A stretch of DNA of 26,008 bases from a virus. Made by a program: the position numbers and the translations under genes. Numbering within the stretch: position 1 is the stretch's first letter; each line of letters opens with the position of its first letter. Below, in pieces: positions 18,006 to 26,008 of this stretch. The notes under the pieces were generated by a model. The model did no database searches, was not told the DNA's origin, and saw nothing but the letters and a program-made list of their open reading frames with translations. The DNA is taken from IMG/VR virus record IMGVR_UViG_3300048838_000917, positions 1 to 26,008 of that record. The stretch is one strand, 5' to 3'.

Positions 18006-20030
18006 TTACGCTCCGAAGGGCATATTAGTAGGCGTCGGGGCGGGCAGCGCAAACCCCGCGTCAGGCGAAGCAGGCGGCACGCTACGCCCGTCTAGGGGCG
18101 GGCGGGGGGTTCCCTCAAGGGCAGACGGCGGCGCCGGCCTAGGGGCTTGCGCGAGGCCGGCAAAGGCATTGCCCCGCTTGGGATCAGGAATTACTTCATC
18201 AACATTATAACCCCGAGATTTAAGGATCTCACGAAGCAGTACGCTAACACCCTGCGGCGGAATAAACTGCAAGTATGGAGTAAGCACTTGCATAATTTCA
18301 ACAGTACGACTCTGCGACAATTCACGCTGCATAATACCGCTAGCACCGCGCGCAATAATCTGCGCATCGACCTTTGCAGCTTCATCGTCGCCGTACTTAA
18401 GTTCGTGATTGTAGTAGATAGTAACCGTAGGTGCAATTACGTCAGAATCAATATTAAGTAAAACTTGCTTAATACCCTTAGCAGCATTGCCCATCAACAT
18501 CGACAAGCCGCCCATTGTACGCCCGGCGCCAGCAACCTGCGGATTACCAAGCACATACGCCGGTACACCGCTGATATCGTCGGCAAGTTTAAGGTACTGA
18601 TCGACAATACCCTGCAATTCAGCAGCATTACTATCAACCTTCTGAAACCGGAAAACAGGTTCAGAAGTACCCGTCATGCTAGGTTCGGTACGGTACAATC
18701 TACCCGGTTCAATCTGGTGCGGCTGTTCTTCCTCGGCACTAAGGCGAGTAATATCAAACTCGCCAAACGGACCTGCGGAAAACGACATATTTTTTGCGAG
18801 ATTTCGAGCCGCAGCATTTGCCATGCGCTCGATAGACTCCAACAAATCCGGCAGAGCCTCGCCCCAAAAGCATCCATTAACTTTCTTAAAGCTAGTGGTA
18901 TGAATCGGACGCACGCCCAGCGGGTGTGGATTTAGCACCGCATAAATAGTCTCGCCATCGACGACCCACACAATGGATTCGTAAGGCTTTTGCGGATCAT
19001 CAACAAGCACGCCGGCGTCGATTAGCATCTGTCCTTTGAGAACACCGTAATACACAAGCGCATCAATATACTCTTCGCGCTCAGTATGATCGGTACGCTC
19101 TTTAAGGTGATCCTCTTCGCTATCCGTATTGAGATCAATACGTGCTCCGGAATGCTGAAACTTATCTAGCAACTTACGGACTGTTTCTGCCTTGAAACCT
19201 TCAATCGCCAAACACTCATGCAGATATGCGTAAGTAAGTTGCTTTTTAATGATGATATACGTACCATCTTGCCCGTTTGTAGAATCGCGAGACGGGAAAA
19301 CAGAAAGCGGATCAATCCGCTCACATTCCCGCACTACAACACGATGAACATCGATCTTATCTCCTACCCATCGCATACGCTCGCGCGAGCGAAGAATAGG
19401 CGCTTCAAAGATGGCAGTAGGATACGTGGTAACATCATCTAGAAAACGACGGAATTCGCGCATCCAGTTGCCTTCTAGCATTCTGTCGCGAATTAGTGTT
19501 TCCATATGCATAGCAGCTTGTGTCGCGCGGTCCATAACGAACCCACGCGCAAGCTCTTTGTAGCGTTTCGCGGCCTGAACAATAGCCCCCATATCAGAAA
19601 TCCCCATAGCAAGAATTTCTTGCTTGAGGTTTTCAATAGCTACTTTTTTGATATTTTCAGGGATTGTAGGGTTTGGCGTAGGTGCTAACGTCCACGGCTG
19701 TTCTTCGGCATTCGCCAGAATATCCGTCATCCACGACAGCGCCGCACGGCATTTAAGATCAATAATTGGGATATAGATATCAGACGTAGCCGCAACTAAG
19801 TCAGCATCTTCCGGGTCATACTCCCGCCGACGCCGCCGAAGCGCACGCATAATACGATTATCAACGCCCGAAGCTTGCCTGTTATCTCTCGCAATGCTGA
19901 AACAAGATTCTACATGCGAGGCAAGCGTATCCTCGACGATCTTAGCTTGAAGCTCGATAGCTTCGTATCGAGCTTCATCCGCACTTATTTCTTTTGCGGA
20001 TCGCGGGGCGGCGTAGTTAGTTAGGCTCAT
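18006..20030 (-). CDS. Portal protein (674 aa)
   Basis: The portal is the dodecameric ring at one capsid vertex through which DNA enters and leaves, docking the terminase and the tail adaptors. The sequence shows an N-terminal helical clip (KIVEDTLASHVESCFSIARD), the wing domain with many charged residues, and the conserved stem/crown stretch LLESIERMANAAARNLAKN followed by DQYLKLADDISGVPAYVLGN. After about residue 629 there is a Pro/Ala-rich tail ending PTPTNMPFGA. The length is at the upper end, as for podovirus portals. It overlaps the spanin gene by 14 bases upstream. Confidence is high from length, order and motif style. Confidence 0.9.
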   Translation of the reverse strand: MSLTNYAAPRSAKEISADEARYEAIELQAKIVEDTLASHVESCFSIARDNRQASGVDNRIMRALRRRRREYDPEDADLVAATSDIYIPIIDLKCRAALSWMTDILANAEEQPWTLAPTPNPTIPENIKKVAIENLKQEILAMGISDMGAIVQAAKRYKELARGFVMDRATQAAMHMETLIRDRMLEGNWMREFRRFLDDVTTYPTAIFEAPILRSRERMRWVGDKIDVHRVVVRECERIDPLSVFPSRDSTNGQDGTYIIIKKQLTYAYLHECLAIEGFKAETVRKLLDKFQHSGARIDLNTDSEEDHLKERTDHTEREEYIDALVYYGVLKGQMLIDAGVLVDDPQKPYESIVWVVDGETIYAVLNPHPLGVRPIHTTSFKKVNGCFWGEALPDLLESIERMANAAARNLAKNMSFSAGPFGEFDITRLSAEEEQPHQIEPGRLYRTEPSMTGTSEPVFRFQKVDSNAAELQGIVDQYLKLADDISGVPAYVLGNPQVAGAGRTMGGLSMLMGNAAKGIKQVLLNIDSDVIAPTVTIYYNHELKYGDDEAAKVDAQIIARGASGIMQRELSQSRTVEIMQVLTPYLQFIPPQGVSVLLREILKSRGYNVDEVIPDPKRGNAFAGLAQAPRPAPPSALEGTPRPPLDGRSVPPASPDAGFALPAPTPTNMPFGA

Positions 20031-20343
20031 TGAGGCACGCCTCTGCTTGCTTTTTGACGCTTGTCAATTCAATCATGCATGATTCGTAGGCTTCTGCGCC
20101 TTCGATATACGCACGCTCCAAATCATCCCGAGGTATTAGTCCTTGCTCGGTCGGGAGTGGAATTGGGTAAGCTTTTGGAAGGTTGAATTGAAGCTGGGGC
20201 TTGGGTTTTGATACTGGCGGCGAGTCTATCTCGGGCTTCGTTACTTTCTCGCCCCACTTGCATGAGGATATTACTACGGTCAGAGTCAATATCGCAAGAA
20301 CTCGAAGCGGGGTTTTGCCTCTGAATTTGTGTGTAGCGTGCAT
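20017..20343 (-). CDS. Outer-membrane spanin lipoprotein, Rz1-like (108 aa)
   Basis: A basic N-terminus is followed by a hydrophobic stretch (LRVLAILTLTVVISSC), with Cys28 at the lipobox (ISSC), so the mature protein should be a lipid-anchored outer-membrane protein. A Pro-rich segment follows (PEIDSPPVSKPKPQLQFNLP), typical for Rz1. The last 45 residues (DLERAYIEGAEAYESCMIEL) add a helix, making it longer than the classic Rz1 of lambda. It begins inside the Rz gene in another frame, with an AGGAG site, and continues 106 bases past the Rz stop. It acts with Rz to fuse inner and outer membranes at lysis. Confidence 0.8.
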   Translation of the reverse strand: MHATHKFRGKTPLRVLAILTLTVVISSCKWGEKVTKPEIDSPPVSKPKPQLQFNLPKAYPIPLPTEQGLIPRDDLERAYIEGAEAYESCMIELTSVKKQAEACLNEPN

Positions 20344-23372: not shown

Positions 23373-23400
23373 GTGTTACACAACTTTTTTAGCTTGTCAA
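23373..23400 (-). promoter_or_regulatory. Leftward late-operon promoter upstream of the small terminase
   Basis: On the minus strand a perfect -35 TTGACA (23400-23395) is followed after 16 bases by TAACAC (23378-23373), a partial match to TATAAT. The start of transcription would be near 23365, about 20 bases before the small terminase ATG. The spacer holds CTAAAAAAGT, the same core as the upstream array, so a protein binding that core could compete with or recruit RNA polymerase here. Confidence 0.6.
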
Positions 23401-23455
23401 TATTATTTTTTGGGTTTGGATTGTGGGCAAACGGGGATTTCTGGGTCCGTACCCC

Positions 23456-23699
23456 GTACTTTTTAGGTTATTTTTGCTATTTTCCGGCGTACTTTTTTAG
23501 GATAGGCGAGTACGCTCGCAAACTTTCTACCTATTTCTATTATTTTTCCGGCGTACTTTTTTAGGGTAGGCGAGTATGCCCACAAACTTTTTACCTATTT
23601 TTATTATTTTTCCGGCGTACTTTTCTAGGTTATTTTTATTATTTTTCCGACGTACTTTTTTAGGTTATTTTTATTATTTTTCCGACGTACTTTTTTAGG
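23456..23699. repeat. Tandem array of CGTACTTTTTTAGG elements
   Basis: An 18-base element CCGRCGTACTTTTTTAGG occurs with its CC at 23484, 23548, 23612, 23647 and 23682, plus a shortened copy at 23456-23467 and a core copy at 23383-23392 inside the late promoter. Spacing is 64, 64, 35, 35 bp. Short units consist of the element plus TTATTTTTATTATTTTT. Long units carry an extra 29 bases with a small hairpin, GCGAG-TACG-CTCGC in the first long copy. Candidate iterons, regulator sites or a terminase binding array. Confidence 0.85.
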
Positions 23700-23722
23700 G
23701 TAGGCGAGTATCGGTGAGCTAT

Positions 23723-23750
23723 GGGGGGTGCGGGGGTACGGGGGCGGGGG
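23723..23750 (+). other. G-quadruplex motif
   Basis: The plus strand reads G6-TGC-G5-TAC-G5-C-G5, a textbook four-tract G-quadruplex motif with loops of 3, 3 and 1 base. It starts 23 bases after the last array element. On the minus strand it is C-rich and lies upstream of the late promoter. Confidence 0.75.
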
Positions 23751-23845
23751 TCCCGGCGCGCGTGGTCCGTATACCCCTATCCCTTGTTTTATCTTGAACC
23801 GCGCATTCTAACCGAGTCGATTATTCTTAAACCCTTTCCGTCGGG

Positions 23846-23873: not shown

Positions 23874-23930
23874 AAAATCGAACGCGCATTATGTGCTAAT
23901 GCCGTTGGTCCACTGGCAAATTACAGGCAC

Positions 23931-23961
23931 AAAAAAGCCCGCGCATTATGCGCGGGCTTTT
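23931..23961 (-). terminator. Terminator 2, near-perfect palindrome
   Basis: The arms 23933-23946 and 23948-23961 are exact reverse complements around one base, giving an 11-14 bp GC-rich stem. Leftward it is followed by T6, rightward by T4, so it could work in both directions. It shares GGCACAAAAAAGCCCGC with terminator 1, indicating a duplication. Confidence 0.8.
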
Positions 23962-24061
23962 CCTTAAATCATATTTTAATTCTAACCTACATACTGCCCA
24001 CAACCAGAAAACCATATATCGCTCCGCATGCCATCGCGTAGCCAATGGCGGCCCAAAGCAA

Positions 24062-24747: not shown

Positions 24748-24792
24748 GCAATCTTATTGAGTATTGACAAACGCCGAGAAGTCTGATCTAAA
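24748..24792 (+). promoter_or_regulatory. Rightward promoter A with upstream GCAATCTTATT box
   Basis: GCAATCTTATT (24748-24758) precedes TTGACA (24764-24769), a 17-base spacer and TCTAAA (24787-24792). The -35 is perfect and spacing is optimal for bacterial sigma70 RNA polymerase. Confidence 0.6.
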
Positions 24793-24858
24793 TACTTAAA
24801 CATTATCGAACCGCACTTTACGTTATTCGCTGAACGCCCGCTGAATGATTTACCACAT

Positions 24859-24902
24859 GCAATCTTATTGTGTTTGACTTCTCCGGGGAGCGGCGTTCTA
24901 AT
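24859..24902 (+). promoter_or_regulatory. Rightward promoter B with the same box
   Basis: GCAATCTTATT (24859-24869), TTGACT (24874-24879), 17-base spacer and TCTAAT (24897-24902). It matches promoter A in box, spacing and -10 style, so the two probably share regulation. A third box at 24927-24937 is followed by an AT-rich run but by no clear -35. Confidence 0.6.
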
Positions 24903-24988
24903 TACTCATTCCATTTCCACCCTACAGCAATCTTATTTTTTATATACTTAAACTCGCACGTTTCATTTCCCAGACCCCCCAACAATTA

Positions 24989-25345
24989 ATTGCTGCGGGA
25001 TAGCCAAATGCAGGGTTTTGTTCCGCTGAAATAATGAAAATGCGCTAGATGAGACACATCCTATTGAATTGCGTGCGGGAAAGTCGAGACACAGAAAAGC
25101 CAAAAGCCGCCCCGATAATCAAAGAGAAAAGCTTAATGCATGCCGCTATCGTACATAGAAACCCCTCATATTAGGACTTCCTGATATTGTTCAGCCGGCG
25201 TTCAGTTACAACCCGCACACGAGGAAAATCAATGACTTAGGTCCGCCGAACCCCCGATTTTTTGGGGTCCGAGGGGTTATTCCAGCGGAACAACGACCGC
25301 ATTTTCCCAAAACCGTACGCAATTCATAATTGCGTACGGGAAAGT
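24989..25345. repeat. AATTGCGTRCGGGAAAGT elements
   Basis: The 18-base word occurs at 25067-25084 and 25328-25345 with one mismatch, and a weaker relative (ATTGCTGCGGGA) at 24989-25000. The two good copies are both followed by AGAAAA(G)CCAAAA at a similar distance. A GTTCCGCTG word at 25020-25028 recurs inverted at 25283-25291. The set looks like an old duplication of a control element. Confidence 0.7.
25313..25339. repeat. Perfect 12-bp inverted repeat
   Basis: The arms CCGTACGCAATT (25313-25324) and AATTGCGTACGG (25328-25339) are exact complements around CAT. It overlaps the second AATTGCGT element, so that element is here part of a dyad. Candidate operator, cruciform or origin part. Confidence 0.8.
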
Positions 25346-25462
25346 GGGGGGTAGAAAACCAAAATGGGGGTGCCAAAATAATAATTAATACTATTTCAAC
25401 CAAGCATGGTGTCCAGTCTCGGGTGTTCTGTTTTCTCTTCTAGAGAGAGAGAAAAAAAAAAC

Positions 25463-25488
25463 GGGCCAAACGGGGGGGAGGGGGGGGG
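25463..25488 (+). other. G-rich run with quadruplex potential
   Basis: GGG at 25463-25465, G7 at 25472-25478 and G9 at 25480-25488 give at least four G3 tracts. It lies about 100 bases before the rightward gene, after an AG-rich purine run. Long homopolymer runs here are also a likely source of sequencing error. Confidence 0.55.
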
Positions 25489-25591
25489 TTTGCCCCCACT
25501 TTTCTCCTCTCTCTCCAGCGGACGCCACACACGCCCAAAACACGACACAATGCTCGACAAGATTCCCGCCCAGCCAAAAATCAGGTGCCAA

Positions 25592-26008
25592 ATGCAAAAT
25601 CTATTCGATTTATTTCAAACCCGAATTCAGCTCGCAAATGAGTACCGCGAGCTACAAAAGCGAATGCGCGAGAATACTTCCGCCTTCGATCCCATATATG
25701 CCGAAATAAACGCAAATCACGATTCTATTCTGCAAAAACGGAGCGCCCACTGCTCTATCCCTATCTGGCACAGCACCCTATTCCCTTTACCCACAAACAC
25801 CGTTTGGCTAAGCAAGGCTGGTAAAGTCATGCTGGCGTACCCCAAACAATTAATCCCAGAGAATGAACTTATCAGCGCCTACGCCATGTGTGTAGATTCT
25901 TGCGGTGCACGCGAATGCAAATGCAACCAAGTAAACGAACTCTGGGTATTTCGCGACAATTCAAAACTGGTGCGCTCAATACATGGCACAATTCTACTGC
26001 CCAAGTAA
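25592..26008 (+). CDS. Rightward protein of unknown function with a Cys4 cluster (138 aa)
   Basis: The frame is open from 25406, but the stretch up to 25550 is coded by low-complexity DNA, so a later start is likely. The ATG at 25592 has AGGTG about five bases ahead; 25550 is an alternative with no good ribosome site. Residues 5-50 form a charged helix (TRIQLANEYRELQKRMRENT). The second half is beta-rich (TVWLSKAGKVMLAYPK, ELWVFRD) and has Cys100, Cys104, Cys109 and Cys111 in CVDSCGARECKC, a possible metal site. It is the first gene of a rightward module; its TAA is the last codon of the window. No family is recognised. Confidence 0.65.
   Translation: MQNLFDLFQTRIQLANEYRELQKRMRENTSAFDPIYAEINANHDSILQKRSAHCSIPIWHSTLFPLPTNTVWLSKAGKVMLAYPKQLIPENELISAYAMCVDSCGARECKCNQVNELWVFRDNSKLVRSIHGTILLPK

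Follow-up and report, generated by a model that had tools for sequence, protein, structure and literature searches.

Three exact copies of an 11-base box, GCAATCTTATT, lie within 190 bp of each other in the divergent noncoding region of an uncultured phage, and the first two are each found just upstream of a rightward promoter-like site (Table 1). This arrangement is real, nonrandom and, judging from its anatomy, probably functional. The best reading of the box is that of a regulator site specific to this phage lineage and centred near -44/-45. In the version that we favour, with a little less than even confidence, a sequence-specific regulator would activate tandem sigma70 promoters in the rightward direction via a dyad beside the -35. 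The general kind of arrangement, a phage promoter preceded by a site for a protein, has long been known. If the boxes are indeed a regulator site, they would provide a compact handle on the switch-on of the rightward genes in an uncultured, little-studied phage group, and could serve as bait in a search for the regulator.

Genome context of the boxes

The analysed window is the complete record IMGVR_UViG_3300048838_000917 (G000), a contig of 26,008 bases from an uncultured phage. Its leftward genes encode the small and large terminase subunits, a portal/adaptor protein, the major head protein and an internal virion protein. The boxes and promoter-like sites are located in the divergent noncoding region between these packaging and structural genes and the first rightward gene, which starts about 680-790 nt from the two promoter-like sites. 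The contig ends right after this gene, so that nearly all the genes that the promoters would serve, any phage regulator among them, lie outside the fragment. The stop codon of this last gene coincides with the exact contig end (26006-26008), as if the contig had been trimmed at a gene boundary. Longer alternative starts of the first rightward gene are possible at 25406 and 25550, and a family search with its product gave no match. The 92-aa protein encoded on the far side of the divergent region also had no match in a family search and did not detectably resemble its counterpart by position, and its predicted structure has a pLDDT of 50, an unreliable model. This protein was considered as a candidate regulator of the boxes.

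The complete layout can be seen in a 63.5-kb relative, IMGVR_UViG_3300037458_000177 (G001), of which the large terminase is 74% and the head protein 88% identical. Here, the structural genes run leftward, a divergent noncoding region spans ~19.4-20.8 kb, and the replication genes run rightward, including DNA polymerase A, an SNF2 helicase, a PD-(D/E)XK nuclease and an AAA/VWA pair. No DNA similarity was found between the box region or this end of the contig and annotated phage and plasmid records, and terminase alignment revealed no prophage relatives in genomes.

Table 1. Features of the divergent region and its flanking genes. Ranks refer to the 51,936 window positions scored with a sigma70 weight matrix built from approximate textbook frequencies.
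Feature	Position	Strand	Remarks
Small basic leftward gene, 92 aa	24109..24387	-	Far side of the divergent region; low-confidence fold
Box 1, GCAATCTTATT	24748..24758	+	About -51 to -41 from the inferred start 24799
Promoter-like site 1	24764..24792	+	TTGACA (24764-24769), 17 nt, TCTAAA (24787-24792); rank 12 of 51,936
Box 2, GCAATCTTATT	24859..24869	+	About -50 to -40 from the inferred start 24909
Promoter-like site 2	24874..24902	+	TTGACT (24874-24879), 17 nt, TCTAAT (24897-24902), then TACT; rank 6 of 51,936
Box 3, GCAATCTTATT	24927..24937	+	No G after the box
-10-like TATACT, then TAAAC	24943..24953	+	TATACT at 24943-24948; no recognisable -35
First rightward gene, 138 aa	25592..26008	+	ATG with AGGTG ahead; start picked by inspection

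The boxes and the promoter-like sites

An exact 11-mer occurring three times within 200 nt was found in none of 300 dinucleotide shuffles of the window and in none of 2000 shuffles of the divergent region. The box consists of A or T at 8 of its 11 letters, and the remaining G, C and C are identical across the three copies. Together with the next base it forms the dyad CAATcttATTG (24749-24759 in copy 1 and 24860-24870 in copy 2), which is broken in box 3. The motif CAATNNNATTG occurs three times in the window, with 0.4 occurrences expected. The boxes are spaced 111 and 68 bp from start to start and thus do not share one helical phase.

Two sites of the form TTGAC(A/T), 17-base spacer and TCTAA(A/T), described in an earlier note on this DNA, are present as claimed. 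The same note placed the box 15-16 bases upstream of both -35 hexamers; this holds as a start-to-start distance, the gap between the end of the box and the -35 being 5 and 4 nt, respectively. The -35 matches TTGACA at 6/6 positions in site 1 and at 5/6 in site 2, and the spacer of both lies inside the 16-18 nt range of sigma70 promoters. Site 1 also has a TG ahead of its -10, and TACTTAAAC directly after it. Within the divergent region, the weight matrix ranks site 2 first and site 1 second. By a rough analytic estimate, the probability that both boxes precede such good sites at the same offset is ~1e-6. Neither -10 hexamer combines closeness to TATAAT with the expected A (position 2) and T (position 6): TCTAAA and TCTAAT both carry a C at position 2 and score 1.0 and 4.8 bits, respectively. 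Because of this second base, a strict consensus scan omits both sites; it also makes their unaided strength doubtful, and they are thus termed promoter-like sites rather than promoters. Folding of the leader RNA just downstream of them is no better than that of shuffled sequences. Leftward use of the boxes was rejected, as the reverse complement contains TAAGAT but no fitting -35.

A comparison of the two units reveals that identity is confined to the elements. The box is identical at 11/11 positions, the -35 at 5/6, the -10 at 5/6 and the subsequent TACT at 4/4 (9/10 for the -10 and TACT together), whereas only 5/17 positions agree in the spacer, 2/20 in the 20 nt upstream and 8/20 in the 20 nt downstream. 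A recent duplication would have copied the spacer and flanks as well, so this pattern argues for selection. The repeats, their spacings, the relative conservation and the location of the units can be read directly from the DNA.

The third box was said to stand without a promoter. No -35 is indeed present there, but the good -10 hexamer TATACT follows after 5 nt, which places box 3 at about -28 to -18 (~-22) relative to this site. Counting from the last two T of the box, the sequence continues as TTTTTTATATACTTAAAC. The motif TACTTAAAC is found only at 24793, after promoter-like site 1, and at 24945, after box 3.

Search for the box and the unit in other sequences

Further boxes, which the earlier note suggested looking for, did not turn up: there are no other exact copies in the 26-kb fragment, which lacks nearly all rightward genes, and GCAATCTTATT is absent from G001 at 0 or 1 mismatch. 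With two mismatches, the divergent region of G001 contains a sole plus-strand look-alike, GCAATTTTTTTG / GCAATTTTTTTGAGT at 20058, which is near chance. At 19720-19894 of G001 (L016), three leftward TTGACA-N17/18-TAGCMN units with TGTGCTAGC in common are located upstream of a small leftward gene. The divergent region of G001 thus resembles that of G000 in carrying repeated promoter-like units at the same place in the genome; its units differ in being leftward, in having the -10 region in common instead of an upstream box and in lacking GCAATCTTATT. Both phages thus use this place for repeated units resembling promoters, with differing sequence and direction. The same region of G001 also contains TTAATA at 12-nt steps, in two clusters (19906-20110). 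In the more distant relative G004, no composite box-promoter unit was found; inspection by eye identified a TTGACT-N17-TACCCT site, in which the -10 has a TGC in front of it, preceding its other-strand block.

A single match, L006, lies in an unrelated phage sequence with no second box and is at about chance level, and this match was rejected. The composite pattern of box, TTGAC and -10 gave one viral match (L025) and four genome matches in unrelated phyla. In L025, the box and the end of a helicase-like gene overlap; this match and the four scattered genome matches, as a group, are taken as chance, the chance level for composite matches being our own estimate. Paired boxes 40-70 nt apart gave six viral matches, five of which lie inside repetitive open frames. 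Two exact boxes, 56 nt from start to start, occur at 10325-10390 of L030, in the divergent noncoding region of an unrelated phage, possibly by chance; L030 has no TTGAC at the matching offset and was not retained as the same signal. With only isolated matches at about chance level, the box does not, at this search sensitivity, qualify as a signal in wide use among phages or hosts.

Proposed role of the boxes and alternative explanations

The constant position of the boxes, their exact conservation next to a random spacer and their location in the divergent region are best accommodated by shared control through an upstream protein. The earlier note proposed a shared early-control signal bound by an activator or by the alpha subunit of RNA polymerase; its shared upstream-protein control best fits the anatomy, and its alpha-subunit version is the weaker one. 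The 'early' timing and the involvement of an activator are what we infer from the sequence. In the proposed mechanism, a regulator encoded by the phage or the host would control two sigma70 promoters of the host type, arranged in tandem, from which the replication/early gene block to the right would be transcribed. Its dimer would occupy the short dyad CAAT-CTT-ATTG, beside the -35 and centred ~44-45 bp ahead of the start, from where it may touch RNA polymerase in a class II-like activation and offset the defective -10, with its C for A at position 2. Box 3, on the -10-like TATACT without a -35, might be a third such site, used to tune or block a minor start. Assuming a start 7 nt after the -10, the centres of boxes 1 and 2 lie at -45 and -44, within the class II range of ~-40 to -45, and this position, the dyad and the poor -10 together favour a regulator that aids the polymerase.

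Among the closest known arrangements is the middle promoter Pm of phage Mu, where a Mor dimer binds a dyad centred at -43.5 (PMC4390567). Both are phage promoters for the host sigma70 polymerase, and the Mor dyad lies near the box centres of ~-44/-45. At Pm there is a single site, with 5-bp arms in 16 bp, and no -35, whereas the present region has two promoter-like sites with good -35s and 4-bp arms in 11 bp, in different letters. Activated promoters such as Pm usually lack a good -35. The middle promoters of T4 likewise combine a phage-specific short box with a host-type -10; however, the MotA box replaces the -35 at 12 +/- 1 bp from the -10, whereas here an intact -35 follows boxes 1 and 2, and the gap from box 3 to TATACT is 5 nt.

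Two features count against an activator and would be accounted for by an operator: the -35 hexamers are good, and box 3 lies at ~-22, where a class II-type activator would not work. The shortness of the dyad and its break in box 3, the lack of a common helical phase among the boxes and the absence of the box from G001 also weigh against the favoured mechanism. A repressor on boxes 1 and 2 would block the polymerase at the edge of the -35, and box 3, which lies at -28 to -18 relative to TATACT, would cover the spacer and -10 of a third start. Three sites that differ in their position relative to the -10 are more easily reconciled with a repressor than with an activator. However, boxes 1 and 2 stop 4-5 nt upstream of the -35 and not over the core promoter, repression does not need an exact common offset, and no repressor gene was seen in the 26-kb fragment. 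A repressor fits almost as well, and activation stays somewhat ahead of repression; taken by itself, the operator explanation is rather doubtful.

An UP-element-like contact for the C-terminal domain of the alpha subunit, at strong host-type early promoters as in T4, is improbable. The boxes, at ~-51 to -40, overlap the zone where the alpha subunit contacts DNA, and T4 early promoters, which join UP, -35, TGn and -10 elements (PMC2988021), likewise have further conserved sequence ahead of the -35. However, UP elements consist mainly of A and T tracts (PMC4390567). The exact retention of GCAATC seen here is not something that such a motif requires, which weakens this explanation. The T4 early promoters also have an excellent -10, in contrast to the mixed-base box and poor -10 found here. 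It is quite unlikely that the repeats are the leftover of a local duplication without regulatory role, with possibly inactive promoters. Phage divergent regions, including that of G000, are rich in short repeats, nothing alike was found in the relatives and the -10 boxes carry C at position 2; yet, identity confined to separate functional-looking elements amid random sequence is unlike copying. We give similarly little credence to a phage-specific promoter class made of box, TTGAC and TCTAAWTACT, in which a polymerase redirected by a phage factor would tolerate the C in the -10; what is really recognised would then be TCTAAWTACT, with the box as an activator site. Iterons, repeats for the initiation of replication rather than transcription, are very improbable: short boxes repeated in the main noncoding region would suit them, but the spacing is uneven (111 and 68), there are only three copies, the window contains no match to the DnaA box (TTWTNCACA) and the boxes are tightly tied to -35 and -10 elements.

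Other features of the region

Upstream of the small terminase gene (window 23383-23760), at least four copies of CGTACTTTTTTAGG are found in 35- and 64-nt repeats, followed by GAGCTATGGGGGGTGYGGGGGTACGGGGG. This CGTACTTTTTTAGG/GAGCTATGGGGGGTGYGGGGGTACGGGGG region is kept in G001 at 18641-18817 to a degree well beyond chance (alignment score 67, null maximum 32), and the repeats could represent late promoters or a packaging site. At 23919-23964 of the window, CAGGCACAAAAAAG, a hairpin and CTTTTCCT form a structure like a two-way terminator, with one in the same place in G001 (18983-19028).

The leader of the first rightward gene (window 25270-25600) folds much better than shuffled sequences (z -3.2). 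Within it lie a hairpin with a perfect 12-bp stem (25313-25339) and an arm of low complexity made of GAGAGA, poly-A and poly-G (25440-25518). The motifs TTGTTCCGCTGRAATAA, GAAAATGCG and TGAATTGCGTRCGG each occur in window segments 25018-25084 and 25277-25345, in opposite orientation, unnested and ~240-260 nt apart.
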